64,000 bases of DNA from Isoetes taiwanensis (taxonomy: Eukaryota > Streptophyta > Lycopodiopsida > Isoetales > Isoetaceae): contig JAJEKV010000085.1 in assembly GCA_021234155.1 (NCBI GenBank), forward strand, positions 1,870,896 to 1,934,895. The letters run 5' to 3'. Positions 407 through 36,050 of this stretch are shown here, one piece after another. The translations under genes and the position numbers were made by a program. The stretch's first letter is position 1. The number at the start of each line of letters is the position of its first letter. The notes under the pieces are model-generated. The model ran no database searches. It saw only the letters and a list, made by a program, of their open reading frames with translations, and had not been told where the DNA came from.

Positions 407-1029
407 GTCGTATGGAGGCGTAAGCCCGGCTTGATTTAGATGGAAGAGTTCGCAACTCTTATGGCATGAAGGATAAGGATATAGGGAAAGTTGCTACAAA
501 GAAACTTGATAGGAGCAAGAGAATCTGGTGGAAAGGCTACGCAAAGTCCAACAAGCTCAAAAGGAACAGCTTGCATTCAAGACCTTCAAAGAAGGCCTTT
601 CGCAGACATTATGTGCCCAGTCACATACTAGCAAAGATCCCAAAGAGCTCTACAGATTGAACCAAGGTACCTTGTCGTAAGCAAAGTACACAGAGGAATT
701 CATGCGACTTCAAAGCTCCATGTTCCCGGAGTTTCGAAAGGCAAGCGGTTGAAACTTACATTGAGGGATTGAACAAAGAATATCAAGAGGCTAGTCCCAG
801 CGATCAACCCTAAGTCAAGAGCGTAATGAGGATAAAGCCATAAGTTTGAAGAAGCTCCAAAGAACGCCAGTGAGAGACAAATCGCCTTCAAAGGAAAGTC
901 ACGACAAAGTACCAAGGGCAGCAACAGAGTAAGCAATCGGCAACTACGCCATCAGGAGGCCAGCAGCAAGGAAGAGCTCAGGGTAAGAACTTTGGGGACC
1001 GTAAGCCGCAGAATGCATCAGGGGGCAGC
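407..1029 (+). pseudogene. degenerate remainder of gag
   Basis: This interval joins the gag fragment to the zinc-knuckle ORF. It is A/G-rich, like the flanking coding strand, and holds only short open pieces (for example 466-660, lysine/arginine-rich) interrupted by stops. I interpret it as decayed gag from position alone. No motif supports any single frame. Confidence 0.45.
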
Positions 1030-2562
1030 ATGTTAAAGTGTATTCTAGACAGCCTGACGAAAGAGAAGAGACAGGAATGTATTGAGAAGAAGCTATGTTT
1101 CAGGTGCTTCCAGCCAGGGCACCGAACACATGATTGCCCATTCGTCATGCAGGCAGCCTTGGCAGAGCTTATGGATTGGGATTCACCAACAGAAGCGGAT
1201 GAGGACGACGACCAGCATGAGGTCCAGGACTTCATAGATGGTGAGTGCCACATATGTGCAAACATTGAGTCAGATGACATTGAAAGTCAGTCAACAGTCA
1301 TTGCGGCTGAGGGGATCATAGATAGCAGTCCATATCTAGTATTGATAGACACAGGTAGCTTGCACAACTTCGCCTCTCCTAGGCTGGCTGCCCTAATGAA
1401 GAACAAGGTATTGAAGTCTAAGCCAAGGCCAGTTGCTATGGCAAACGGCGCCATTCGGCACACTAAGGGAAGGAGGATTACATTCGACATAGACCTTAGT
1501 GGAAGTAAGTGGCCGATGGGGGCGGAGGTTATGGAGATTGGAAGGTATGACCTCATAGTAGGAATGGAGTTCCTAAAGCCAGCGAAAACCATGATAGACT
1601 GCGACCGCAATGAAGTCGCCATGACAGCACCGGACGGCACCAAATTCATAGTGAGAGGTAAGAAGACAGCTTCTTCTATGCAGTGTATTTCTTTGAAGCA
1701 GCTAAGGAAAAGTATAGAAAGAAATAAGGTGGATTACATTTTGAGATTGGAGGCAATTGAGCCCAATAAGCAGGATGGGAACGACCAAAAGGGGAAGCAC
1801 TTGCCCAAGCCAGTAGCAAGGCTTATTTCGGAATTCAAGGATGTATTTCCGGATGAAATCCGGCAACTACCACCTTATAGGGGTGTGGAGTGTGAGATCA
1901 CACTAGCACCAGATGTTAAGCCTACCAGCAAGGCACCGTACAGGATGAGCACACCGGAATTGATTGAGCTCAAGAAGCAACTCCAGGAATTGCTTGAGCT
2001 TGGTTTTATTAGAGCAAGTGTGTCTCCTTTTAGAGCACCCATACTCTTCGTGAAGAAGAAAGATGGCAGTTTAAGAATGTGCATAGACTATCGCCAGCTC
2101 AACAAGCAGACGATAAAGAATAAGTATGCATTGCCAAGGGCAGATGATTTAATGGACCAGCTCCAAGGAGCAAAGGTATTCTCTAAGATTGATTTGAGGT
2201 CAGGGTACCACCAAATAAGAATAAAAGAAGAGGATATCCATAAGACCGCCTTCAGAACGCGGTATGGTCACTTTGAGTTTACAGTAATGCCCTTTGGATT
2301 GTCGAATGCTCCAGCAACTTTTATGCGCCTCATGAATGACATCTTCAGGGATTTTCTAGATGAGTTTGTCATTGTCTTCTTCGACGACATTCTAGTCTAC
2401 AGCAAGTCCATTGAAGATCATAGTCAGCATTTGAGAAGGGTGTTAGAAAAGTTGAGGCGGCATCGTTTGTATGGAAAGCTCTCCAAATGCCACTTTGCTA
2501 CTGAAAGAGTGGAGTACTTGGGCCATGTCATATCGGCGGAAGGGATCTCCACCGACCCATAA
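1030..2562 (+). pseudogene. Gypsy gag C-terminus, protease and reverse transcriptase (pol part 1)
   Basis: The 510-codon frame starts just before a nucleocapsid CCHC knuckle (C23, C26, H31, C36). An acidic linker follows, then a retropepsin active site (LIDTGS, D107) and a reverse transcriptase. Visible RT landmarks are the YRQLN fingers motif, the SGYHQI/KTAF region, MPFGL, and the FFDDILVYS catalytic loop (D452-D453; the usual Y is F). The frame stops at TAA 2560-2562 inside the RT thumb/connection. Homologous sequence resumes 40 bases later in another frame, so the polyprotein is broken. In an intact element it would supply protease and RNA-dependent DNA polymerase activity in the virus-like particle. 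Confidence 0.92.
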
Positions 2563-2600
2563 AGATCGGGCGATGAGTAGATTGGCCAGCTCCAAAGAAT

Positions 2601-4607
2601 GTGGCAGTAAGAAGCTTTCTAGGTCCGGCGGGGTTATTACAGGAAGTTCGCGTGAAGGACTTAGCCAAGTGGGCGTCCCCTTTGACGGACCTCACTAAGA
2701 GTGTTAAGGTGAAAGATTGGAGAACACATTGGTTAGAAAATGTTCAAGCTTCATTTGAAAAGCTTAAAGAGGCCTTAACAACAGCACCAGTGCTAGTTCT
2801 GCCAGATCCAGACAAGGACAAGATAGTAGCAACAGATGCAAGTAAGATAGCAACAGGTGGAGTCCTTATGCAAGAAGGAAGAGTAATAGCTTATGATTCC
2901 AAGAAGTTGAATGACACCGAGCAGCGCTATCCAACCCATGATCAGGAACTTCTAGCTATTGTCAGAGCTCTTCATATTTGGAGGCATTATTTGCTTGGGA
3001 GGAAGTTTCAGTTAGATACTGATCACCAGAGCCTCCAATACATCTTTACCCAACCACTTCTGAATCTAAGACAAAGGAGGTGGATGGAATTCCTAGAAGA
3101 GTATGACTTTGAGATTGCTTATAAGCCAGGTAAGTTGAACGTGGTCGCCGATGCTCTTTCTAGAAGACCTCTTGAGACGAGAACTCATTGTAATGCTATA
3201 TCAACTCTTTCGAGTGGATATGGCAAGAAAATTGAAGAGACACTACCATCTGATGGTGATTTCAAGGAGGTATGGGAAAGCCTTTCTAGAGAGGCTAGAA
3301 CAGATAAGGAACGGGAGGCCTTCAAGCATTATAAGAAGGAAGGCAACTTGTTGTATCATAAGCATAAGTTGTGTGTGCCCGAATCATCAGGGGTAAGGAA
3401 GCTAATTCTTCATGACACACACAACAGCCCAATAGCAGGGCATGCAGGGTTTATGAAGACCTACTTCAAGATTCGAAGTAGCTACTTCTGGCCGGGAATG
3501 AAGAAGCAGATAGCAAGATATATTCGTGAGTGCCAGTTGTGTCAGCAAACCAAAGCGGAGCAGCTTCGAATTCCAGGAGCTTTGGAACCTCTAGCAGTGC
3601 CGAATGCGAAGTGGGAAGTGGTAAGTATGGATTTTATCACAGGACTTCCCAAGACTCTTCGAGGCAAGGATGCATTGATGGTCGTAGTAGACAAATTATC
3701 TAAGATGGCACATTTTGTGCCTTGTAGAACTACCGACACAGCATTAGATACTGCCAAGCTATTTGTGAAGGAGATTTTTAGGCTCCATGGCATGCCTCGG
3801 GAGATAATATCTGATAGAGATTCCAAGTTTATGAGTGCTTTTTGGCAGGACCTCTTCAGCACCATTCAGACGAAGCTCTCCATGAGCACGGCATATCATC
3901 CCCAAACAGATGGTCAGACGGAGAGGACGAATCGAATCATTGAAGATATGCTTAGAAGCTTTGTGTGGAATAAGCAGTCCAAGTGGGATGAGTATATCCA
4001 CTTGGTGGAATTCGCCTACAATAGTGCCAAACAGGAGTCATCTCAGATGTCTCCTTTCATGGTAAATTACGGGTACCAGTGCTTAACCCCGGACACTTGG
4101 CACAATCCCGTGTCAAAGATTGAAGTGTCCCAACAGATGCTAGGAGATATGCAGCAGTTGGTGGAAGAAGTGAGGGGTTACCTCCTAGCAGCAAGAAGTC
4201 GGCAGAAGAGTGTAGCCGACAAGCACAGGACAGTAAGAGAGTTCAAAGTAGGCGATAGCGTGTGGTTGAAGATCAAGGTCAAGCAAGGTAAGCTTCGGAT
4301 TGGGAGTTGCAAGAAGCTTGCCCCTCGATGGGCTGGTCCGTTCAAGATTTTGGAGAGAGTGGGCTCCCAAGCCTACAAGTTGGACCTTCCGGCCCATCTC
4401 AAAGTTCACAAGGTTTTCCACGTAAGTTTATTGAAAAGGCACAATCCTAACCCTGATGAGGTTTTGGATACTCCAACGTTGTTGGAAATGACTGAGGAGC
4501 AGGTTGAAATTGCGCCTGAGTTACTTAGAAGACTAGGAGGTCTCAGTTCCTCCAGTATTTGGTCAAGTGGAAGCACTTGCCCGTGGAAGACGCGACATGG
4601 GTATTGA
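2601..4607 (+). pseudogene. Gypsy RNase H and integrase (pol part 2)
   Basis: The 668-codon frame continues pol after the break. It holds the end of the RT connection (VRSFLG), an RNase H domain (ATDAS D79, E116, DTDH D139), and an integrase with a zinc-binding HHCC module (H274, H281, C311, C314). The integrase core has D344 (SMDF), D405 (SDRD) and E441 (QTER), i.e. D,D35E spacing. A C-terminal region leads to the VFHVSLL motif that precedes chromodomains. The last ~20 codons are out of frame: the true chromodomain reads on in a different frame from ~4547. The element inserts cDNA into chromatin; this copy cannot make a continuous pol protein. Confidence 0.93.
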
Positions 4608-4702
4608 AGCAGGATTTGGAGAAGCAATACCCAGATTTCATGAAGGAGTTTGATGGGCAAGTCGTCTCCGACTTGGTCGACCCCGACTTGCCAGGAGGTT
4701 AG
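4547..4702 (+). pseudogene. Gypsy integrase-linked chromodomain (frame-shifted end of pol)
   Basis: In the frame ending at TAG 4700-4702 the translation contains the chromodomain core YLVKWKHLPVEDATW, followed by an acidic tail closing on DPDLPGG. Chromodomains after integrase target chromoviruses to modified histones. One of the usual aromatic-cage residues (W in KWK) is visible. A frame change near 4540 separates it from the integrase frame. Confidence 0.85.
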
Positions 4703-7162: not shown

Positions 7163-7978
7163 ATTTAATTCATCCAGCTCCTGCATGAAGCAGCACCATG
7201 TGGCCTTACCATACTGAATCCGAGGTCACAGATCTTTGATACAACCAACCTGTATGTCTTACAAATCAATCTTCTTAATGAACATGGTCGGAGTTGTCGC
7301 TAGTCTGTCTGATGCCATTACTAATGGCTATCAGATCAGCTCCATTATTGAGAAACTTGCTTATATTGAGTGCAACACGATATATGGCTGCAATTGCCAA
7401 TCTGATTTCTGGATGCAATTTTTATTTCATAGCCATACATTTTTCCACAATAGCATATATCTATCTGCTACTTCTAAATCGAATGACAAATTTGGTCTTT
7501 CTGCAATATGATGACCCAAATACTTCAATTCCAAATGAATGCTTTCATTTTTTGCAGCCAGTTAAACAGAGCTTACAGAGCTTGACCAAGATCTCTCCAA
7601 GTTAAATTTCAAGACCCATAAAGCAGAACATGCCTCAGAAGTAGAGTTTGAGACCCATTAAATGAAACAGAGTTAAGAAGTCTGATTTCATCCTCTCAGG
7701 TTCGATTTATAAATTTGCAGCCAAAAATTTTCAATTTGTAGCCATAGAATCATGATTTCGCCCCATTAAAGAGGCAAAAGGATTAGAAAACTCTGTTATG
7801 GGGCATTTCGTCAAATTTGCACTGAATACTGTACTCGGTATGAGCTACTTGATTAAATGTTCAGGCATTTGGTGTCAGATTGAATTAGTATAATCTCTTG
7901 CATTGCAGATCATATATATAATATGAATTTTTGCTTTATTCCTAAGTTTCTTGAATATGAATTTGTTTGTGGTCTATT
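7150..7978 (+). repeat. ~0.8 kb direct repeat, copy 1
   Basis: From about 7170 to 7978 this sequence matches 8819-9618 at high identity (long exact blocks, e.g. around 7375-7560 versus 9010-9200). The shared block starts near 'tttaa(t/c)tcatccag' and ends at 'tttgtttgtggtctat'. The Gypsy LTR abuts the left end of this copy. Short open frames in both copies differ in phase or contain substitutions; I do not call a gene. Confidence 0.8.
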
Positions 7979-8818: not shown

Positions 8819-9618
8819 GATTTAACTCATCCAGAGCGCCATGTGGCCTTACCATACTGAATCCGAGATCATAGATCTTTGATAGAACCTGTATGTCTTA
8901 CGAAGCAACCTTCTTAATCAACATGGTCGGAGTTGTTGCTGGTCTCTTTGATACCATTACTAATGGCTATCAGATCAGCTCCATTATTAAGAAACTTGCT
9001 CATCTTGAGTGCAACACGATATATGGCTGCAATTGCCAATCTGATTTTTGGATGCAATTTTTATTTCATAGCCATACATTTTCCCACAATAGCATATATC
9101 TATCTGCTACTTCTAAATCGAATGACAAATTTGGTCTTTCTACAATATGATGACCCAAATGCTTCAATTCCAAATGAATGCTTTCATTTTTTGCAGCCAG
9201 TTAAACAGAGCTTACAGAGCTTGACCAAGATCTCTCCAAGTTAAATTTCAAGACCCATAAAGCAGAACATGCCTCAGAAGTAGAGTTTGAGACCCATTAA
9301 ATGAAACGGAGTTAAGAAGTCTGATTTCATCCTCTCAGGTTCGATTTATATGTTTGCAGCCAAAAATTTTCAATCTGTAGCCATAGAATCATGATTTCGC
9401 CCCATTAAAGACGCAAAAGGATTTGGAAACTCTGTTATTGGGCATTTCGTCAAATTTGCACTGAATACTGTACTCAATATAAGCTACTTGATTAAATGTT
9501 CAGGCATTTGGTGTCGGATTGAATTACTATCATCTCTTGCATTGCAGATCATATATATAATATGAATTTTTGCTTTATTCCTAAGTTTCTTGAATATAAA
9601 TTTGTTTGTGGTCTATAA
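8819..9618 (+). repeat. ~0.8 kb direct repeat, copy 2
   Basis: Second copy of the repeat described at 7150-7978; copy starts are ~1.65 kb apart. It lacks the adjacent Gypsy insertion and has a slightly shorter left end. Ends are not TG...CA and no target duplication is evident, so it is a duplicated segment rather than a clear LTR pair. Confidence 0.8.
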
Positions 9619-22517: not shown

Positions 22518-25500
22518 TCTACTTACTTAAAAAGTTTTTGCCCTTTCTCTCTCACGCCGGGTTCCCCTTTCCGGCCGCTGGATGTTACGCTTTTTCCGGC
22601 ACAAAAACGGTTTTCCGGCCAAAACTTCTTCTTCCTAACATATTTTTTTGCTTCCGTTTATTTTTCCGGCAGCAACTTTATCTCTCTTGGTTGTGGGCGG
22701 CCCGTAGGTTAAGGTAGCATGGCGGGTCGCAAAGCAGAGCACAGCAATCCGGCGATGTCTTGGTTTTTCGGCACTTCACCCTCCCTCGAACGTTTTATTA
22801 TTCTAACGTTTTGTTCCTTTCTTACAAACGGCAGTAGCAAGAGCAACGTTATGGAGTCGTTCAGCTTAATCCATCTGTTTTTTCCTTCCTCAGTCTATTG
22901 AGCGATGCTGAGGTCGGACACAAAACCTTAATCCGTCTGCTTTTGACAATATTATTTCAGAGATGGAAATCAGACACCCAGTTTGGAGATTGTGAGTTTG
23001 TATTGTTACAAAGATAGTCCAGATAGCAACCATTTGGATATTCAAGGAAGTGCTGATGTTAAAAGGCATGCAGGTTGGCTCTGAAGAACAGAACAGAGGT
23101 AAATGGTGAAGATCCGGCTATGGCATAACTGGGTTTGTGCAAAACGTATATACTGATAGAGATCACATCAAAGAAAACTCAATCGATGGGGAAGCTTTTG
23201 ATAAATCTAGCATTCTTTTTGGATTCACGTGATGTTAAAGCAAATCGTGTTTGGCACGCTCTCCAAGCCACCGATAACCGCTTAAGATTGGTGCCTTATT
23301 CGGATCTAGGAAGTAAATTGATAGTTTATGACATGCGACCAATGATTTTGTATCTAATGTGCAAAGCCAAACAAAGGCGTACTGCGTCTTGATTATGCAA
23401 GGAACTCCCCGGATATAGTGTTATGACAGAGGTAACAACCATCTTTGTAATACAACTTTGCATTTGCATCTGTGATATGGAGGCATGGTTCTTGTTCCAT
23501 GCAAATTGTAAGTGTTTTTCTCGCTTGAATTTCTTTGTCCATCTCTCATTATGCGGCCCCGATGATGATCGTGTTAATGCCATGTATAGAGATTGGTCGC
23601 CTCTTAGCCACAAGTAAAATGAAAACGTGGTATTTGCCTGCTGCATTATCTAAAGGGCAAGTATGCCATGGGAATCCACCTCAAATTAGGCAAGACAACC
23701 AAACTGATGCCAACATGATATGAGGTATTCAAATATATTTATGCATTTTGAAGAAAAAGCAGTTCAGGATCTCTAACATAAATCAGGAGCTCCCATCGTT
23801 TTTCCTTCTTCAAAATGCAGAAGCAAGGCATTTGTGCAGCATGAGAGCTTCATCGAGCAGAGCTATCTCATCCGGCATCCGGTACACCTTATCCGACAGC
23901 AAGCAGGTAATTTATTAACCTTTTTTCTTTAGAGATTTTTCTTTTTAAATTAGCAACGCATTGGGGCTATCCACCAATGCTATCCAGCTTATGTTCCAAA
24001 GGGATCCATTGCAGATTGAGTCGTCATGGCAGCTGGTTCATGTTTCTGATTTGTGAAACGGCACCATCGCCAGGTTTTTATGCTGGGTTCCAGTGAGCAA
24101 ATCGATACTCCTACAATATACCTGTAATGGGTGCACGCTTTCGGTTTGCCAATTGACTGTTGGTGAGGTTCTACAGCATTTTGGTGGTTTTGGAAGTAGT
24201 CCTTCCATTGTAGGTTGCTGCTCATGTAGTTCTTTTTTCTTGATTGTCTAATTGAGAAGTTGATTCTTAAATAATGCTCCATTTTGCAGATTTGAGGCAA
24301 GTAAGGCGGCAGCAACAGCATGCAACCAAGTAGGCAACAAGAGATTTTCATTTGACATTTTTGTTTGTTTTGCTAATCGTCTTTTGCAAGTTCTGTTGCT
24401 GCAAGATTCGTTGTTGCAGGGCAGTGTCCATAACGTATTTCTTTATGTCTTCTTTGCATGTTCAAAATCCAGTATTGTGTGCTTATTTCTTTGTGTTGGT
24501 TTTAGTCTGGATTTGATGCAGATGTCTCAATATTCCTGTGCCTTTTTTATTAACAGAGATGGAGTAATGGGTAGCAATCGGTGACTTGATTTCTGGACAA
24601 GAACATTTTGGAATCTGCCAGATGAGTCCACAAGGTAGTTTTCTTCTTCGAGAGATCATAGGGTCCATATACGGACACCTTTCTTAAACATATTTTTTAT
24701 CTGTTTACTAATTTCCTTCGTGCTTATTTTCATAGCAAAGCTCATGCAGTCTTGCCAGGTACTTTGGTGCCCATTCCTAAATGCTTAGTGCAAAGTTATT
24801 GCAGCTTGACCAGTGAAACAGGTGAAGCATCTTCAATATTTTCATTGTTTGTCACTTAAGGATAGCATTTTTTACACGTGATGTTATGCAAACCCAAATC
24901 TGGTCCTGCTATACCCATAAATCTGGCATTTCGTAATGATGGAAGAGATATGGAAATGGTATCTTGCTTCTGATGCATCTTCATTTACATGATATGCTTC
25001 TGTTCTACTCTTTTACGTTATTATTGTTCAACTATCTATTGTATTATTCTCCTTGCATAGCTTACATTGCTACAGTTCTCTATTTCTTTACAGGCTGGTG
25101 CTGGAGCAACCGTTTTGGCCTAACAGTCAGGCATGGCCGGATATGCATGAAGATCAAGCCGCTGGAGCAGGTAGAACCCTTAATACCTCTGTTTAATTAT
25201 TTGTTATACTTATATTCAGACGAGGCTGCCTTCCACCAATGAATCCATCTTAAATACATTGTGGTTTTTTATTTGCTACTTGCATTGTCATAACAGATAG
25301 GTGCTAAGCAACTGAGTATATGTATGTCAATCTTACAGAGCAAGGGCAGAGCAAGCAAGAGCAAGAGCAATTTTGAAGCGGATTTCATAGGGCAGAAGAG
25401 TCGCTGAAGCAGGTATGAAACATATCAGAAACAAGGGTGCTTGAGACATGGAGTGCTTGAAACAGTAGTGCTTGAAACATATCATTTACTTAACTCTTGC

Positions 25501-25520
25501 ATTTTGAACACGATTGCAAA

Positions 25521-25564
25521 TTAAACGGGAGTGTTGCATCACTCCCGTTTCAAAGATTCCCTTT
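25521..25564 (+). repeat. left TTAA duplication and terminal repeat of the nested transposon
   Basis: TTAA (25521-25524) precedes ACGGGAG, which opens a perfect 9 bp-arm hairpin ACGGGAGTG-TTGCAT-CACTCCCGT (25525-25548). A subterminal AAAGATTCCC (25552-25561) follows. The inverted counterparts occur at the right end. Confidence 0.82.
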
Positions 25565-26596
25565 AAAAAAACACCAAGTTTCTAAAATAAGCCTTTTTTG
25601 ATAGTTGTTAAGAATTTCTAGAGGTTTGCATTTTTTTTCATGCCATTTTGGCCCATTATTAGACGAAAACTTTGTACTTATGAAACAGAAATCATAAAAA
25701 TAGCGAAATTTAGGCATAGACTTGAAGAGACTGAAAGCATTACAAAAAACAAGCACCAGAATAGAAAGGAAAAAAAAGTACTATGTTTTTAATAAATTGT
25801 TGTACATCAATATTGAAGATTCATTGTAATAAATAATGATAATTTTAATATCACGATGTCAAAGATCTACATCATAGTCCTCCTCATTCTTTTTTCTTTG
25901 CTCTCGCCATCTCGTCATACATTCTATCCGCTCCTTTGCTTTGGAGACTTGAGTTTTGTATCCTCCTTGTCCTTCCGGAATGGTAGCTAAAGCTACTTCT
26001 TTAAGCTCTGCAAAGGTTGCCTCATCGTCTAGTGAGCTGGAGAATGGAGGTCAGATCTCGAGGATGTTAGTTTAGCATAATCGGATGAAGACTTGGCCCC
26101 TAGCTCTTGATGTTCATCCTGGTAAAGTAGGTAAGGCAAACCGATCTCATCTTCACAAAATTAACGAAGATCCTTATCAATATCCACGGCTACACAGTTG
26201 CGGCCCTTCTTAAGTGCACATGCGATAGTAGTACCAGAACCAGAGAAAGCATCAAGCACCCAGTCTCCTGGACGCGAGAACATGTCCAGGAGATGGTTGA
26301 TGAGCTTTTGTGGTTTCTGGTAGTGATTCACAATCCTGCCTTGTGCAGTTGGGTCCTGCAATTTCTGTAAACTCAAGGACGTTTGAGAAGTTTTGACAGG
26401 CGGCAGTGTTGAAGTGTTCCATGGTCCTCTTCCTATCAAAACTCCAATAAGCTACATGAAGGTACTCTACCTTGCTAAGCAACCTTGGTCCTCCACCATG
26501 GTAGTTGATGTTCATTTTGTACCTAGTAAAACATTTAAAGTGATGTTTACTTAGCAAAAACAAGAACACACTTCGAAAACCAGAAGCAGGAAATAC

Positions 26597-26649
26597 TATT
26601 CCGGAATACACTACGTAATCAAAGAGAAAAGTAACTGTATTCTGGAATA
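26597..26649. repeat. two solitary GTATTC/GAATAC palindromes in a methyltransferase intron
   Basis: TATTCCGGAATA at 26597-26608 and TATTCTGGAATA at 26638-26649 both lie in the intron 26523-26657. They share their cores with the 41 bp arrays. Confidence 0.8.
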
Positions 26650-27392
26650 AGACTTACCAGACAAGGTTTTCATATCCTGCCTGAACTGGAGAACCAAAGT
26701 GGTTTTTGAAAGCTGATTCTACCAAGCCAGACTGCATGCTCGAATGGAAAGTAACTAAACGCCAATGTTTAGCCGTTGTGATCTGCTTGATTCCATCAAT
26801 AAAAGCATTAAACTCTGAAAATTTGAAGGGCTGGTCGTCATATCTGCTGTCTTTAAGCTTAAACCCGTAGGGAAGATCAGCAATAACCAAAGTGAAGTCC
26901 TGTGGCTTAACCGTTCCGACTAGGTTCGTGCAATCACCATGAATGATTGAATATAAATTGTTTTGATCAAACATGCTGAATCTCTCGTAATCGGATGGTT
27001 CTAACTCAACAGTTCTTCTTTCAGCTAACGACCTCTCTTCCCGTGCTGTTCTAACCAAATGCATGAAGCCCTCGGGAAGGTCTTTGTTTTTCTTTTTGCT
27101 CTGAGAAAAAACATGACAACAACTGTAAGGAGATCGTGTGTGCAAAGGCGAGTAATGTTGAGAGTACTTACCCAGCCCTCAAAATTTGGTGCATATTGCA
27201 CAATTCGCTCGTCAGAAGTGGCTACAGGGTAGAGTTCCTTGCACCTTTCCCATGTCTCTACGTTTAGCTGCTCCATCAAACATGTTTGACATGTTATGGC
27301 GTTCTTTTGGCTGCAAGGCGTTAAGGAAACAATGAGTAAAAAGTAAGAAACAAGGCAAAGAAGAAGAAAAACAAATAAAAGTCAAGCTAAAT

Positions 27393-27406
27393 GTATTCTG
27401 GAATAC
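27393..27406. repeat. solitary palindrome GTATTCTGGAATAC
   Basis: It lies in the same intron as array A, 36 bp to its left, with the same core as array members but without the long flanking arms. Confidence 0.8.
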
Positions 27407-27440
27407 AAACTGGTTAACTGGTGATGTTACCTCGAAACAA

Positions 27441-27676
27441 AATGCATTGTGTATTCCGGAATACACATTGCTTCTCTGAAGAAAGCAATGTGTATTCTGG
27501 AATACACAATACTTTTTTAGAAGAGGACATGTGTATTCCAGAATACACATGGCTTCCTTTACATGTCCATTGTGTATTCCGAAATACACATTGCTTGTAT
27601 CTAGAACGACATTGTGTATTCCTAATACACAAAGGCCCCCAAGTGAAGAAAGGTATGTGTATTCGAATACACTATC
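27441..27676. repeat. hairpin array A: six palindromes, 41 bp period
   Basis: Six copies of a palindrome with arms (a/t)TGTGTATT...AATACACA. Centres are at about 27457, 27498, 27539, 27580, 27622 and 27664, i.e. spaced 41-42 bp. The centre of each differs: CCGG, CTGG, CCAG, CCGA, CCT, and finally a minimal TTCGAA. Spacers are not obviously related. The array fills the intron 27311-27732 of the methyltransferase gene. Because of the regular repeat, both strands stay open for >70 codons, which should not be read as a gene. Confidence 0.9.
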
Positions 27677-28001
27677 TACCATGTTTTGGGACTCTAACGT
27701 CTAAAGAGCAAAGTTTGTGGCAGAGATCTTACTTGTGCAATTCCTTTGACATTTCTTCTAGGCTAAACTCCTTGTCAACAACTTTTTGGAGAAGCCTTTC
27801 CAAAATCTCTGTGTCGGAGAAGCCCTGCATTTCCCTCCAGACGGTAATGGTCATTTCTTTTTTTTGGGCACGCGTCAGGGTTTTTTCTTGGCTGTCTCCT
27901 TGCCCTTGCTCTTTAACTCCCCTCGCTCGAACATTGTGAATATCTGGTCCTGGAGTTCCCAAATCTGTTCAAGCAGATTTCACGTCAAATAGTTGGTTTG
28001 C

Positions 28002-28013
28002 TATTCTGGAATA
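28002..28013. repeat. solitary palindrome TATTCTGGAATA in a 63 bp intron
   Basis: It sits inside the short intron 27965-28027 of the methyltransferase gene, directly upstream (on +) of the GTAAGC donor complement. Confidence 0.75.
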
Positions 28014-29466
28014 CATTTTGTGCTTACCTTGCCATCTCTAAAAGCTAACTGGAACCAGTTGTCGTGGGGAATAAGAGACTGCCTTTTGTTGGCCTCGTCA
28101 TATTTCAGGCAGCATTCAATGGCACACGCCTCCTTAAGCTCCAAGGAAAACGCTGGCTTCTTCAGGTCCTCACCGTACTTTTCCTTGAAAATTACGTACT
28201 CCCTGTGCATAAACCGGATCTTGTCGACAAAGCTCATCTTTAGTTTGTACTTTCGTTATCGATTGTGGGTGTTGGCGATTTTTTGCTCTTCATCCAGTAA
28301 GACCACGGTGAGACGGCCCTGAGGAGGGCGGAGAGGTACCTCGGGTTCTTCTTTTCTTTGTAAAGTTGCCTTCTTGCCTTGAAGCTATGATTCCCTCCCA
28401 AGACGTAGTGAGTGTAGGTGTCAGCATTTTCTCTGTCATACTCCTGGGGGGTTGTGCACTGGTCCCTGTCAACAAGGACAACTATTGGGGCCACATGAGC
28501 ATTTGGATTGCTCCTTATTACATCTTTTCGAGTTCCTCAAGTGATCGGCATAAATTTTTTGCGAACACAGGAAGTGGCCTTTCACCGACTTCATTTTTTG
28601 GAGGAAGCTTCATTGAAGTGGCCCGGCAAATAAATGACACCTTGCACAAACTTGTGCGGGTTAATCTCTTCCATTTTTTTCAGATGTTTTATCAACTTTT
28701 TTTCTTTAATAGCAACACCAGGTGCTTTACCCTTTCCTTCTTCTTCTTAGGTTCCTCGGGGACTTCTATGATTTCAAGTCTGCATGTTTTCCTCTTCTTT
28801 GGTTCTTTAGCAGCTATGGTCTCTCTTAGCGTGCTAAGTTTCTTTGGCGCAGCATGAGGGGTTCTTCCTCCTCTTCTTCCTCAAAACCTTTATCCGATGA
28901 CCTCCCCAAGAACTAGCGTAACTAGGAGAAGGTGGTGATTGCGATCTTTCTCCATCGATTGCTTTCTGACTCACCGACGGAAAGTCCTCGCTTGTCTTTG
29001 GAAAAACTGTTTAATTAATGAACACAGGCTTCGTTTTAGCCGTAGTGTGAAAAAAAATTTGTACAAATGCGGTGGTTGCACACCCGACAATTTTAAAGAA
29101 TGCAAGGTCCACAACAATGAAGCCTTGGGAGGTCTTGAAGGATAGCCTCCCCGTTTGACCTCCTTGTCCCAAGCACCCTGGAGACATCTTTTATTGTCCC
29201 AAGGTTAACAAACATGGAGTCGGCGTACCTTTTTGTTACCAAAGACTTTTACGGGGCGATACAAAACGCGTCGGTGTCTTTATTTTTTCCATCTGCCCCC
29301 TGAGTTACGAACCACTGCGTTTGAAAGTTTTCGTAAATAGCAGGTTCGTCCGTGTCAGCGGTGTGCTTTTGTGATGAGATTTCTTTGATGCCCTCTTGCT
29401 TCCTTCTTCCCTGCCACTGAAACGTTTAAAACAACCATGTTAAGACAGAAATGCAAAAGAAATTTG

Positions 29467-29478
29467 TATTCCAGAATA
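29467..29478. repeat. solitary palindrome TATTCCAGAATA upstream of the methyltransferase exon
   Basis: It lies 51 bp beyond the acceptor of the first recognised methyltransferase exon, between that exon and array B. Confidence 0.75.
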
Positions 29479-29667
29479 ACATTTGCTAATCTTATGCCCT
29501 AAAGGCCAGAAAAAGACAAGAAAACAAGCTAAAATGTTGTCAGTCTAAGTCAATTTCGTGTATCTAAATTAGACTTAACAGAGTAATTTTTAACATAAAA
29601 TGTTATGCATTTGCGACTAAAAAGTGTGTGATTTTAGTAAAAAAAGCAAGCGTTCTCAAAACTACAA

Positions 29668-29984
29668 GCAAAATGTATTCCAGAATACACTTTGCCCATC
29701 AAACGAAGAGCAAAGTGTATTCTGGAATACACTTTGCTCACTGGCGAAGTGCAAAGTGTATTCCGGAATACACTTTGCCTATCGAGACGAGCAAAGTGTA
29801 TTCCCCAATACACTTTGCCCTTTTCAGCGTAGAGTAAAATGTATTCGGAATACACTTTACTCTTCACCCGAAAGGGCAAAGTGTATTCCTAATACACTTT
29901 GCACTTCGCCGATGAGCAAAGTGTATTCCGTAATACACTTTGCTTTTCGCTCGATGGGCAAAGTGTATTCGAATACACTTTGGC
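29668..29984. repeat. hairpin array B: eight palindromes, ~41 bp period, globally palindromic
   Basis: Eight copies of GCAAAGTGTATTC-centre-GAATACACTTTGC, starting at 29668, 29710, 29751, 29791, 29832, 29876, 29916 and 29958. Centres read CCAG, CTGG, CCGG, CCCC, CGG-type, CCT, CCGT, and a final TTCGAA. The 12-14 bp spacers are also inverted repeats of each other about the middle: spacer 1 against reversed spacer 7 matches 11 of 14, and spacer 2 against reversed spacer 6 matches 11 of 13. The whole 317 bp can therefore fold as one long hairpin or as eight small ones. It occupies the interval between the two divergent genes. Confidence 0.92.
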
Positions 29985-30235
29985 CTCTGTAAAAAATCGA
30001 AAAACCAAAGAAAGACGTACTATGTACTTTACATGCTTACCTGTCCATTGTTTTCGCTATGTGAATCGAATACAACAAATATATATATTAATCTAAGAAG
30101 GCGGGCTGGCGACTAAATCTCTGAAGCGGAATATGCAACCGAGGCGCCGAATTTTCCTTTTTAAAGGTAGGCAACTGTCCGGTTGTGTTTTTCTATGTGA
30201 TCACGAATACGTCTTGTCCAAACACTCACGGATAA

Positions 30236-30323
30236 GTGTATTCGGAATAGCATTCTTGCACACACACGCGGAAAATCTTTGCACCTTACGAATACTATTC
30301 GAATAGCATTTGTATTCTCGAAT
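30236..30323. repeat. scattered palindrome relics near the transposase-like gene
   Basis: GTATTCGGAATA (30237-30248), CTATTCGAATAG (30295-30306) and TATTCTCGAATA (30312-30323) lie between array B and the plus-strand gene. They keep the core but have lost the arms. Confidence 0.6.
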
Positions 30324-30379
30324 AGCATTAGTCCAATCGACTTGTGAGTTAGTAACAAGCCCACAATTTTTGCGGTTGT

Positions 30380-33300
30380 TTGAAATGGTTAACCGCCGTG
30401 AACAAACTTCCACCACCATTTGTTTGCCCAAGTACCTCTACTTCGGATGGAACACAAGACGGAGATGCTTCTTCAACACCTACCTCGACAAGGTCTTTGT
30501 TACTTCTAGAAGAAACTCCGAGTCCAGTAACTAGTAGACTGCCACCACCTTTCCAACCCGCTCCAAGTCCAATAGGAAACCGGCTGCCACCACCTTTCCA
30601 ACCCTCACATTTGCCGCGTAGCAATCTTCCACCACCATTTGTTCCATCCCCGACACTACAATGGCTCGACCTCAAAGAAATTTTTGAACGGACTACCTCC
30701 GTAGTTTGTTGTTTCTCCATCTTCACTTACACATGCCGGGAATACAAATTTCGGCGTTCAAGAAGGCTGCGAGATTCTCCATCGTTTCTCCCACCACGAT
30801 TTCACTACAAATGAAGACGACCTGCGGCATCTACTCCTCTTCACACAAACGTGGTGACACATGGGTTTGCAGAATTTCAGTCTGCTATAAGAGAGATGTT
30901 CGATCGAACTCCCTGTGAAGACGCTACAACAACTTTCGCTGGCACATCATATGCTGGCCCATCTCCTTCATTCAACACTTTGCACCTCCGCCTTTTTAGA
31001 GATGCGACTTCACGTGGTTTGTTCTCCTCTACAAGCACGCCACTAAGGGCGAGGAGGTCACCCCCGTGAGTAGAACTCTCTTGAAGATGAAGACACCAAC
31101 GGCGTGCAACGAGATTACATGTTCTCTAGCCATCCACCAAAAAATTTAAGGTGGATTATGGTGTGAGAGCATGCTCCTCTCAAGAAGAAGAAACCTTATG
31201 GACGAGCATAAAATGAGAAGACTTTTAAGAAGTAAATGCTGCTCATTGGGTTGCATCAACAAATTTAACATGTCTAAATTACGAGCAATTAGAGACAACT
31301 ACACCAATGACATTGGCTGACCCGAATGCCTACTTGGCCTATCATGTAAGGCGGACCGCAACACCTTCTTGCACTACATTAACCGGCAAGAAGTTTGCCG
31401 AAATGCTTTATGGTTGTCCACCGCTTTAGGGACTACCGGAATGTCTAGAATACACAAAAGATCGGACAAAAATCCAGCAATTGATGATCATTGTGGACCA
31501 AGAAGAGTTGTAACCATGCATGCCCTTGTCTGCTGTGTGTCATGGATGGAGAAATATTTTAGAGAAACATGTGAGAAGTCGCCTAACAAAGAACATGTAT
31601 CATTTAACCGATAACATCACCAAAAAGATGTTTTTTAATGAGTACAAAGAGACTTGCACTCAACTTCAGCACATCTCTTACTCACACTTCACCAGATTGT
31701 GGAAAAGTGAATTTGGTTTAGTGAAAATTCCGAGGAGACATAGAATGTCTGTTTGCTCAAGGTGTGCAGAATTAAAAAGTCAAAGAGAAACCGCAAAGAC
31801 GTAAGTCGAAAAGAAGTAAGCTCATGTTCTTCAATCTCTCACTTGTTTTAAAAAAATGCTTTGACCTTATTTCTTCTACAGATATTGTGCAACAGAACCT
31901 TGCCAGACATCGTGAACAACAAGCAGCAGAGAGAAGAAAGCTTGCCAAACACAGAAAAAAAGCTCTTGAACGTCCGCTGCAATATATGTCTGTTGTGATT
32001 GATGGAATGGACCAAAAAAAAACTACTCTACCACATTTCTTGAACATTCCTAAAGATGTGCGAGAGGAATGTTTTGTTAAGGTCCACCTTGTAGGAGCTA
32101 TGGTCTTCAAAGGAAGTCTAAAGTGCAAAGTATTTTTGACATATCCAAACTTGCATGGTGACCCGAACCTCACAATTACAATTCTTAACCAGGTCCTGTG
32201 CGAGCAAGAGCAATTACCACCAGTGCTTTACCTGCAACTTGACAATACTACAAGGGAGAACAAGAATCAAACACTCTTTGCATACTGTGCTATGTTAGTG
32301 GAGCTAGGGATCTTTAGAAAAGTGAAGCTCGGTTTTTTACTTGTAGGCCACACTCATGATCAGATTGACCCGGATGTTCAAGAGATTTTACAGTATGCCT
32401 TAGAAGGAAGAAGGCTTTCTCCCTTCCTACATTAGTTCGAATTATTGAAGATTCTTACACTCCCACTCCAGGTGATCGATCTTCTTAAAGAGATGGCGAT
32501 TTCGAGAGAGTTTGTTTTCTCTCAACGTTCGGGAGAGAACAAAGTCGTGAACAAGTTGAATGATCTCACCTTTCAACATCACATCAAGTTCTACTTGAAG
32601 GATGGCGAGTTTCTTCTGAGGGAAAAAGTATACCACAACTAAGGACTGGAGTCCACAAGAGGGATTACGCTTCCTTAAATATATTCCGGACACTTCCTTC
32701 ATAGAACGTCTTTGAACAACTTCCTCTCAAAAATCCTAAGGAGTCCAAGCGTAAGAAAAAAGTACCCCGAGTCATCCTTAAAAGCCATTGAAAATGGAAT
32801 TTCCTCGAGGCTTTAAGTACTTCTTAGAAGAAGATCGGATGTGGTGGAGTAATTTCTTTCTCGAACAAAAAAATTGTTGTGAAAAATATAGCTCTAAGAC
32901 AGGTTGCAAGAACCATTTCGATGGCCTAACACCTTCCATCAACCCCAAAGACCAAGCGAGTCCAAGCAAAGCTACATTAGCACCGCATTAGAAGAAAAGA
33001 TGAGGATCGAGTCATGTACCTCCCGGACCAAGACGCGAGGAATGAACCTCAAGGTAATATCACAGAAATTTGCAAGGGTATGCTAATTGCTCTTCCAACT
33101 GAGGAGGATGACAAAGGTCGACCTTTCTGGATAGCAAAAGTGCTTGACACCGTCAAGGAGGAAGGCTTAGTCACTAAACTCAAGATTCATTGGCTTGCAA
33201 CCGCGATCGAGAAAATGCTTTTGAAGGTAGATATGAGTTAGAAATGAGAAGCCAAGGAAAAGGAAGAAAGTCCAAGAAGGTGGGTTGTAGGGATGAGCTG

Positions 33301-33585
33301 ATCCTTAATGATGTGACTATATTGTGCTATGATTTTAAATTGAAATCTGACAATCGTCTACGCCAGAGGACTATCAATTTGCTTAAAAAAGCTTGTAATT
33401 ACGAAGAAGAGGATGAAGAAGGTGGTGGCAATGCTACACCATCTGTTGATAGTGATGAGGAAGATAACTCAAGCACTTCCTCTAGTGACAGTGAAAAAAG
33501 TGAAGGTGATGAGGATGGTATAAATGAACATGATGACGTCTTGGATCCCTCCTTCATCACTCCTCACACTTTTGCACATAACTGA
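30380..33585 (+). pseudogene. DUF7869-like, transposase-like protein, broken
   Basis: Coding blocks in order: a proline-rich N-terminus with four LPPPFQP-type repeats (30400-30650); a Cys-containing segment (CCSLGC, ~31230) and 'EVCRNAL' (~31385); 31520-31801 with a CSRC zinc-ribbon-like motif; an intron (GTAAGT at ~31801, TTCTACAG at ~31881); then 31882-32435. That last block has VIDGMDQ (D ~32001), LQLDNTTRENKN (D ~32241) and GHTHDQID (~32347), the conserved acidic/histidine core I associate with DUF7869 proteins of plants, cnidarians and oomycetes. Later blocks are 32445-32642, 33014-33241 (possible Tudor/BAH-like 'FWIAKV...IHWLA') and an acidic tail ending 33585. A frame change follows HTHDQID and stops recur near 32440 and 32640. 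The D...D...HTHxxID layout suggests an RNase-H-fold transposase, from context rather than proof. Confidence 0.7.
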
Positions 33586-33884
33586 GTCTTAGAAAAAAAC
33601 TGTAAATTTTGTTGTGAATATGAAGATTGTATCTTCAAATTTTGAGAATACTACAGTTTCAGTTACGGACTAACTTCAATTTTTTGTTAAATATTTTATC
33701 CTCTGAAATTAGGGTTTCTCACGTAAAATATACTTCAAGAACATTCTATTTGCTAAGAAAAATGACACTTTCAAACAGTCAATTCTTTCGTTGCACAAAA
33801 AAATTAGTCACTTTTGGGGGGGTCAAAATAGAATTTCATGCATCTTTTTTTTTTTTAACCTCGTTTTACCCCCTTTTGTAAAAA

Positions 33885-33945
33885 AAAGGGGAATCTTTAA
33901 GGAATATTCCTTTCGCTCTCGTTTCAATGATTTGCTCCCGTTTAA
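33885..33945 (-). repeat. right terminal repeat and TTAA duplication of the nested transposon
   Basis: GGGGAATCTTT (33888-33898) is the inverted counterpart of the left AAAGATTCCC. CTCCCGT ends the element at 33941, and TTAA is at 33942-33945. Between them an AAAGGAATATTCCTT palindrome is present only on this side. The arm that forms the terminal hairpin at the left end is degenerate here. Confidence 0.8.
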
Positions 33946-36050
33946 TACGCAACTTTGTTTTTGCAGGTATCAGATCATTTCATTTGAAGAAAGAGGAATC
34001 GCTGGTACATGGAGCCAAAACGGCTGCCTACAGAATCGATTCTGCTCATGGAAAATGATTCCAGTCCTTCGCAAGAGCGGCACAGGTGCTCTTATGATCC
34101 CAATTATTTGGATTCTTTGCATCCCAAATTTACATTCGTTGGTAAGTAGTAAAATAAATGATCCCTTTTTATGCTTGAAGCCTTTGTGTATATTGCAGGG
34201 GTCGGTTTAGGTCAATCGAGGACATTTACAAATCTGGGAGACTGCTGCACAGCTCAGAAGGGGCTAAAATATTCTGATTCTGTGCATTCTAATCTACGTC
34301 TTCTGTTTTCAAACCCTAAGCAACATGAGGCAAAATTCCAAACATGTTTATAGCTTGCAAATTGAGTCTAAAGCATTCTCGCACGACTAACTACGGTGGC
34401 TAGATTCCAGTACGAATTTCTGCTAAATCATTGGTAAGATCTTTGTATATTTCATATTGTTGAGTTCGATAGCCTGGATTCCAAATACCTATCAGATCTA
34501 AAGTCTGTTACTTTCGTTCCATCAATCCTCTATGGTTCCAACTAGGTTGCAAGAGAGCTCCATAAAATTGTGTGCATCTCACGTTCATTTAGTTCTATCT
34601 GAGGTACGCTCTCATGATAGCCTTGCAAATTTGCTGGACAACTTCTAAATTCTGTTCGATATGTAGATTGCATGTTTCGCAAAGGAAGTGGAATATGTAG
34701 ATTGGTGGGCTTGGCAAAAAGTTTGAGAAATGGTGGAAGCAAATAAGAGGTGGTTTTTTGAGTCTTCATGTGTCCTTTCCTCAATCAGCCTCTCTGCCCA
34801 CTAAATCAGTCGTTCCATAGGTGAGACCAATTGAACATACGTGAAACCAATTGAACATACAGTCTTTTACATTTTGGCAGTATAGATATATTATCTTTCT
34901 GCCCACTAAATCAGTCGTTCTTAAGTGGCTATTGTGACTGTGTGCTCAAGAGGCAGTGCAGAATGAGGTTAGGTTTTAGATATTTTAACAGATTTGGTAA
35001 TAATATTGGTTGTGCTTGATGCAGAAAGGGCGAATTTTAGTTCAGCAGTCTCCAGCATTGGCACTTGCAGCAAAAAGTGTGGATTTGAGTTTTGAAATCT
35101 TGAACACGTAAGTAACTCATGTTTGTCTTTCTCTGTTAAGCACAAAAATTCAAATCCCAACGGCTTTGGAATGATGGGCTTGGGTCTAAATTAAGGAAGC
35201 TCCTTTTCAATATACAGTTTGAATATAGTTTTTGCAACTGAGAAAGGTTTCGTGATGGTTTTTTGATGATTTTTATTTGTAGACAAATATGTTTGCCATA
35301 GTCGCTGAGGAAATCTTGAAGATCTCATTGGTGCTTGAAGACTTTTTCTTAGTAAGCTGTGAAAATGCTCAGGTTTTGATCATGGGATGATTTTTAAAGC
35401 TTTGTAGCTCAGGCGATAGATTCTTTGTCTACACACGTGTCTACACAGTTGGCATGTGTGTCTACACACATGCTTGCTTTCTTGCTTCAAAGGCAGATGA
35501 AGAGGGAGATAGTAGATTCTGGGTAAGATGCTTAACCGACCAAGATCAAAGATGGATTTTCATTTTTTTCACTATTAGAGTATTCAGAACCTCCACACTA
35601 GATCTGCCATTGCATTTCTTAAAATTGACTATTGACTATTGTTATACAAGTTAACATAAATCTACCTTGGATTTTTTAAAACTTATGAGCATTTCATTGG
35701 ATCGTTTTTCAGACTCAATTCTGCTACTCATGCATGTTTTTTATCTGCAACAGGTCATTTTTTCCTTTTAATGCAGTCCAAGATTTAAGAGCTTCAATAA
35801 GAAGATGAGTATAAAAAATTCTTGCTCGCCAGGTTCTGTACCGTGGTCTAAATGCCATCTTCCATGATGACGAACTTTGATTTACAATCTATGTTGTTAA
35901 TAAGTATCTATCTGTCCTATTGCATCATATGTAGTTAACTATCAAAGTTTTATAGTCCTATCAGATTGTTTTAGCCGTTATATATATGCTCAGAAATGTT
36001 TTGAATTCCCTTTCTCTGAAGGCCGAGCAAAAATACATTCCAGGACATTA

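Follow-up and report, generated by a model that had tools for sequence, protein, structure and literature searches.

Does a plant DNA transposon carry its own DNA-modifying enzyme and, if so, what would that enzyme mark? The question is raised by a 64,000-bp stretch of the Isoetes taiwanensis genome (contig JAJEKV010000085.1, positions 1,870,896 to 1,934,895; hereafter the window, with coordinates counted from its first base), in which an original prediction had placed a TTAA-flanked transposon at 25525..33941 pairing a transposase-like gene with a ParB-methyltransferase gene. The element was found to occupy 25507-33959 (8453 bp), and we consider it practically assured that it is a DNA transposon with two selected genes, one copy of a large and probably DDE-type family, the element and its gene pair being near certain. 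Arrays of short palindromes, absent from the original prediction, lie within it. A self-marking or anti-silencing module, with the methyltransferase as its likely effector, has roughly even prospects.

Ends, target sites and copies of the element

The ends of the element are inverted over ~25 bp (AACA...ATTAAACGGGAG). The left terminal inverted repeat, AACACGATTGCAAATTAAACGGGAG, lies at 25507..25531 on the + strand, the point at which homology among copies begins, and the right one, AACAAAGTTGCGTATTAAACGGGAG on the - strand, at 33935..33959, where that homology ends, so that the true ends are ~18 bp farther out than had been proposed. The sequence TTTG is duplicated immediately outside them (25503..25506 and 33960..33963), while other copies are flanked by different 4-bp duplications. 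The inverted ACGGGAG ends of the original prediction are real insofar as TTAAACGGGAG is present twice in inverted orientation, at 25521 and 33935 and nowhere else in the window, but they are not the outer ends of the element. The inverted subterminal blocks were correctly described, with AAAGATTCCC at 25552..25561 (+) matched by an inverted block at 33889..33898 (-), one per orientation. The sequence AAAGATTCC is also present near the left end of loci L031, L032 and L039 and of a divergent family, S4.

The genome (1,658,258,908 bases in 1110 contigs) was searched with 176 bases of the left end from 25525. The best 40 of 1133 candidates were scored, 12 of them at 100% including the window, a recurrence not due to chance, and 20 of the 39 other places (11 at 100%, 9 at 99%) were fetched as 10-kb pieces; the sample therefore consists of copies with a near-perfect left end, and shorter gene-less derivatives may exist among the unscored candidates. 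BLAST homology to the window begins at 25499-25507 in all 20 fetched copies and ends at 33959-33963 in the copies whose listing shows the right end; for L025, the right end was found at base level. Both ends were recovered in 17/20, with L015, L018 and L019 lacking a right end inside 10 kb. Duplications, called by eye, were perfect over 4 bp in 16 of these 17 copies (CACT, AAAA, TACA, AGAA, ACCA, AATC, GAAT, ATTC, TTAA, ATTT, GATA, ATGT, ACCA, TAGC, CCTC and ACCT), the remaining copy reading GATG/GATA. Five further complete elements are flanked by ATAT and CTTA (L031/L032), AACT and GTAG (L033/L034) and AATT (L039); an automated finder of terminal inverted repeats gave no result on L031 and L032, and the ends of both were then found by eye. 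A perfect 4-bp duplication of no fixed sequence is thus present in 22 of 23 complete elements, the window copy (TTTG/TTTG) included.

An empty site, which the original prediction had proposed aligning, was also found. The L025 copy is inserted in Gypsy-like sequence; at 3787-4631 the window contains an uninterrupted paralogue of that sequence, 78% identical and with a single GATA at the insertion point.

The presence of TTAA beside ACGGGAG at both ends would suit a TTAA-specific transposon of piggyBac, Kolobok or Sola3 type, as the supposed TTAA flanks had implied. Sola3 elements duplicate TTAA, and Sola1 and Sola2 elements duplicate 4 bp; for Kolobok and piggyBac, a TTAA target-site duplication is described in PMC9587614. 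However, TTAA is the actual duplication in only 1/23 complete elements (L023), the outer duplications are variable, and L039 has TTGA where the inverted repeat of other copies has TTAA. As TTAA lies inside the inverted repeat, it is not the target-site duplication and the element is not of the TTAA type; this reading is refuted and retains a negligible probability.

Two observations on the fetched copies are recorded here. L019, in its oriented form, carries an insertion of ~3.2 kb near the left end (about 807-4061), and copies are near-identical over their final 250 bp on the right (0.003 substitutions/bp versus 0.03-0.06 inside).

The two genes predicted between the ends, a DUF7869 exon on the + strand and an amino-methyltransferase exon on the - strand, were present and divergent in 17/17 copies with both ends, and the methyltransferase lay on the same strand in 20/20 fetched copies. 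Among the best 150 matches of each gene, 24 pairs fell within 15 kb (0.4 expected), 21 of them divergent. Loci selected by DUF7869 alone (L033, L034, L038 and L039) had adjoining methyltransferase sequence in 4/4 cases; at the truncated L038, a tblastn query with the methyltransferase gave no match and only the first-exon frame, found by eye, is left. The S4 family (L033/L034) has methyltransferase pieces 38-59% identical (mostly ~40%), a transposase 45-53% identical, different ends (AACAACGTC...) and likewise 4-bp duplications, while L039 represents an intermediate subfamily, S5 (transposase 75% identical to protein P0003, methyltransferase pieces 37-72%). Co-occurrence of the two genes therefore persists down to ~40% protein identity. 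When 10 pieces of the element were scanned with Pfam, neither a third gene nor a reverse transcriptase was recognised. Because the gene pair recurs at other loci between the same ends, the copies sampled did not present the ends and the two genes apart, and the proposal stands that this is a DNA transposon of a eukaryote carrying a predicted DNA amino-methyltransferase of its own.

The two genes and the selection acting on them

The transposase gene (30380..33585, + strand, limits approximate) comprises a proline-rich N terminus, a DUF7869 core and an acidic C terminus; it was found in all 17 copies with both ends, and its frames are broken in the window copy. The catalytic frame at 31776..32432 (+; IDGMDQ, QLDN, GHTHDQID) matches PF25273 with an E-value of 2.1e-35 and 122.5 bits against a curated cut-off of 26. 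Its core, D..D..GHTH..D, is invariant or nearly so among PF25273 proteins, and in 43 DUF7869 sequences chosen among 120 listed, D450 and D492 of the acidic triad are invariant and D369 is kept in at least 90%. We infer that the DUF7869 protein moves the element. Pfam searches of five DUF7869 proteins returned no other transposase family above cut-off; one comparison list was composed mostly of retroviral integrases and mariner, and does not exclude other families. Alignment of 94 pattern-matching stretches from viral contigs revealed no DUF7869 relative. On the reverse strand of L038 (5492-8452) there is a 987-aa open transposase frame with proline-rich repeats (RLPPPFxPSP) at its start. In proteins of a fern and lancelets (P0046, P0080, P0082 and P0084), DUF7869 is listed together with PF00665, PF02902 or PF01753, which we take to be rve, ULP-type peptidase and MYND domains, respectively.

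The methyltransferase gene (25859..29425, - strand, outer limits approximate) has several exons, contains PF01555 and was detected in 20/20 fetched copies; its frames are broken in the window copy, presumably by decay or assembly error. One exon (26164..26451, -) contains DAFSGSGTT, the S-adenosylmethionine-binding motif I, and matches PF01555 at E 9.9e-16 (58.8 bits against a cut-off of 26.7). A second frame (26657..27178, -), supported by its reading frame and by genome search matches, contains the catalytic motif IV (DLPYG); when searched against its own genome, 150/150 of the candidates scored, the best 150 of 2708, were matches. The DLPYG exon precedes the FSGSGTT exon within the gene, the order of the beta class. 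D-L/I-P-Y-G and FSGSGTT are kept in the window, L031 and L032, and in S4 DIPYG is found in both copies and FSGSGTT in one of two. A third segment (28243..28536, -; HYVLGGNHSFKARRQL) resembles ParB and sulfiredoxin. The segment itself has no Pfam match, and its relatives have weak ones: the PHROG 'ParB-like partition protein' at E 0.007 and 0.1, DUF6551 at 0.0061, and sulfiredoxin at 0.69, the last outranked by two unrelated enzymes. Profile searches thus placed PF25273 and PF01555 above cut-off and the ParB-like matches below it; the ParB half of the predicted ParB-methyltransferase is plausible but weak. The gene is best described as encoding a predicted DNA amino-methyltransferase of the beta class that also has a ParB/sulfiredoxin-like part, and its product is probably active on DNA. 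D-x-P-Y in motif IV favours N6-methyladenine (6mA).

Relatives of this protein were sought elsewhere. Two proteins, P0001 (Gb_37443) and P0002 (Gb_10123), whose Gb_ prefix we assume to denote Ginkgo, share a similar ParB-like and methyltransferase layout; in P0001, motif IV is replaced by DIPHG and the protein is perhaps inactive. Carriage by viruses was considered and set aside: besides the DUF7869 result above, viral contigs yielded two weak methyltransferase relatives (L001 and L002), whose listed frames lack a ParB-like part by eye, the L002 frame ending at the contig end. One scan of genome contigs (58 pattern-matching stretches) returned no bacterial relative of the ParB-like part.

Whether the methyltransferase was captured as a functionless passenger can be judged from the ratio of nonsynonymous to synonymous substitution rates (dN/dS). 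Abundant frame-breaking indels in S1 speak for a passenger, as do the dN/dS values of 0.61 within S1 and 0.47 within S2 (range within the two subfamilies 0.47-0.66), which are as expected of decaying or error-bearing copies. In the methyltransferase exons of 10 S1 copies, 282 of 307 small indels are not multiples of three, which reflects decay or long-read assembly error. The I. taiwanensis v1 assembly was built from nanopore reads with Illumina polishing (PMC8566536), and single-base indels in repeats are therefore to be treated with caution. Between subfamilies, by contrast, dN/dS is 0.02-0.25 overall in both genes, indicating purifying selection: 0.06-0.24 in the motif IV exon, 0.02-0.25 in the motif I exon, 0.10-0.23 in the ParB-like exon and 0.02-0.22 in the transposase core. 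S1 and S2 differ at 0.24 in the methyltransferase core and 0.22 in the transposase core, and L031 and L032 at 0.05-0.10 in the transposase core and 0.04-0.10 in the three methyltransferase exons (ParB-like, motif IV and motif I). Ratios are rough in some comparisons with more distant loci, where synonymous distance (dS) exceeds 1 or is saturated; saturated comparisons were left out, as were transposase C-terminal rows (wrong frame, internal stops), one dN/dS set took in 3/10 S1 and 3/8 S2 copies, and the copy alignment was made without L029. Together with the retained catalytic motifs and the co-occurrence of the genes down to ~40% identity, the between-subfamily values largely refute a passenger gene, which is now highly improbable.

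The dS between L031 and L032 is 0.25-0.68 in the methyltransferase exons and 0.09-0.10 in the transposase core, and as these distances are unequal the elements have probably exchanged parts. Separately, alignments of S1 copies to the window contain 1.6 substitutions per gap opening, compared with 5.8 for other, more diverged repeats (9 alignments, fetched loci); this low ratio and the near-identical right end reflect either trans-mobilised decayed copies or a polishing artefact.

Palindrome arrays and their possible reader

The element contains two arrays of the palindrome TGTATT-n-AATACA. Array 1 (27392..27671) comprises seven units, mostly at ~41-bp spacing, within a methyltransferase intron, and array 2 (29674..29977) comprises eight units at ~41-bp spacing between the divergent genes. 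All 15 such palindromes of the window are inside the element, and GTATN6ATAC occurs 10 times in the window against 0.57 expected from shuffles. Genome-wide, the 18-base perfect form GTGTATTCCGGAATACAC has 2585 sites and its reversed control none. From 23 sequences, 228 palindromic units were gathered; a unit was admitted when at least four of the six pairs flanking its core were complementary. Pairs 7 and 8 fall outside this filter and are complementary in 161 of the 228 units, compared with 111 and 119 expected; farther out there is little or no excess (at most 86 versus 62, at pair 14).

The palindromes differ between S4 and the S1-S3 subfamilies, that of S3 being GTATTCCGGAATAC. In the two S4 elements no TGTATT-n-AATACA was found, and GTATGAATTCATAC, within two mismatches, has nine sites in each (nine matches in L034 against 0.09 expected), three in a methyltransferase intron and six upstream of the transposase frame. 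The S4 palindrome retains the GTAT-N6-ATAC frame of S1 with different inner six bases. In L039 (S5), the S1 palindrome is located in the S4-type intron. A common frame with an exchanged centre is what would be left by a co-evolving site and reader, and is silent on which protein reads it. These patterns suggest, with fair confidence, that a protein encoded by the element uses the palindromes as its sites.

Hairpins formed by intron RNA or DNA, or by-products of unequal repair, would need no protein partner and could account for the dyad symmetry with paired arm changes and for the intronic position of one array. Such an origin is improbable, as the GTAT...ATAC frame is kept in both families while the centre has changed, and clusters of palindromes are found both in introns and between the genes.

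If a protein does bind the palindromes, it could be the transposase, with the methyltransferase serving elsewhere, at the ends or on host chromatin. Plant transposases commonly bind repeated motifs, and array 2 adjoins both gene starts, as internal binding or enhancer sites might; yet neither array is terminal and one is inside the methyltransferase gene. We consider this unlikely, though less so than hairpins. Matching of proteins to motifs cannot separate the candidates, since L039 keeps the S1 palindrome even though both of its proteins have diverged.

In the reading we prefer, the ParB/sulfiredoxin-like methyltransferase protein would recognise the GTAT-N6-ATAC palindromes of its own element and modify adenine, or less likely cytosine N4, in or near them, and the mark or the bound protein would keep both genes expressible against host silencing, feed back on their expression, or both. 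The original prediction had suggested that the element marks or protects its DNA, and for such a role the arrays supply a definite candidate target. That the methyltransferase is the reader and acts on the palindromes falls slightly short of an even chance. More tentative is a private epigenetic address for each family, in which type-II-like self-modification would place 6mA (or N4-methylcytosine, 4mC) at the element's own palindromes and protein and palindrome would diverge together.

Besides the frame-breaking indels described above, several points weigh against this scheme. Either the transposase or a host factor might be what binds the palindromes, and the enzyme activity, binding and methylation that the scheme supposes are predictions. 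The ParB/sulfiredoxin label derives from sub-threshold matches (E 0.0061-0.69), and the structure model of P0002, a ParB-like protein, has a mean predicted local distance difference test score of 42.6. Pair 5 of the palindrome is without excess (168 versus 164) and pair 2 shows 13 non-complementary double changes. Units were pre-filtered (4/6 inner pairs), and related units have in part inherited their paired arm changes, so that these are not independent events. The intron holding the S4 array is the neighbour of that used in S1. Finally, linkage of the two genes was seen in this genome alone, the two relatives outside it being without genomic context.

In copies L011-L030, the centres of the palindromes carry small indels at ~4-5 times the rate of the remainder of the element (0.073 versus 0.015 per bp per copy in 10 S1 sequences and 0.066 versus 0.015 in seven S2 sequences), and the arms have fewer. 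Possible sources are DNA breakage, the processing of hairpins, and nanopore misreading of modified or palindromic sequence. The enrichment and the palindromic form of the sites would also fit a restriction-modification-like pair, in which the methyltransferase shields the palindromes from a nuclease made by the element or by the host. That arrangement is very doubtful, given that the 10 pieces scanned held no recognised nuclease gene beyond the transposase and that the indels may be nanopore errors.

Relation to known systems and significance

The proposed scheme would resemble that of the VANC proteins and motif arrays of VANDAL elements, the effector here being a DNA methyltransferase. VANDAL transposases are Mutator-like. 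In Arabidopsis, VANC21 binds YAGTATTAY, tandemly arrayed in introns and upstream regions, and lowers DNA methylation of VANDAL21 (PMC5735166). The Isoetes element has the same layout, in that an element-encoded accessory gene is accompanied by short motifs amplified in its introns and upstream, and the motif varies by family (PMC5735166). Unlike VANC21, which reduces methylation, the Isoetes accessory protein is itself a predicted methyltransferase, the motif is palindromic and the transposase is different.

Methyltransferases aboard mobile elements are already known. PMC5890265 describes Dam-like adenine methyltransferases in DIRS retrotransposons and DNA methyltransferases (DNMTs) in charophyte and dinoflagellate retrotransposons, and mentions in a single sentence DNA transposons encoding DNMT in marine viruses, the last being, like the Isoetes element, DNA transposons. 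Those enzymes are of Dam or DNMT type and their carriers are retrotransposons or viral, whereas here a plant DUF7869 DNA transposon carries a beta-class enzyme with a ParB/sulfiredoxin-like part. The N4CMT of bdelloid rotifers is likewise a bacterial PF01555-type permuted amino-methyltransferase in a eukaryote, but it is a host gene with a chromodomain and is not transposon-borne (PMC8885841). KolobokP, a DDD/E element of eukaryotes, also encodes a second enzyme, although this is a His-Me nuclease and the element has a TTAA duplication and long direct repeats (PMC9587614).

The catalytic core described here is shared by PF25273 (DUF7869) proteins from ferns, from a liverwort and from animals. 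We know of no methyltransferase linked to them. A literature search whose coverage mostly lay outside subscription papers turned up no account of DUF7869 nor, as judged by titles and the openings of abstracts, of a beta-class enzyme carried by a DNA transposon of a eukaryote. Within that coverage the pairing of DUF7869 with a beta-class methyltransferase appears new, and the elements possibly form an undescribed superfamily. Elsewhere in the window, a direct repeat (7192-7977 and 8835-9616; 786 columns, 95% identical, 35 mismatches, one gap opening) perhaps represents long terminal repeats or a partial retrotransposon duplication.

These results provide a likely role, as transposases, for the uncharacterised DUF7869 proteins found in plants and animals. 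If the proposed scheme is true, self-marking by mobile elements would extend from retrotransposons to DUF7869 DNA transposons. Targeted 6mA or 4mC in land plants is disputed, and an abundant family with a selected amino-methyltransferase, intact motifs and a precise candidate target makes the question directly testable on native DNA.

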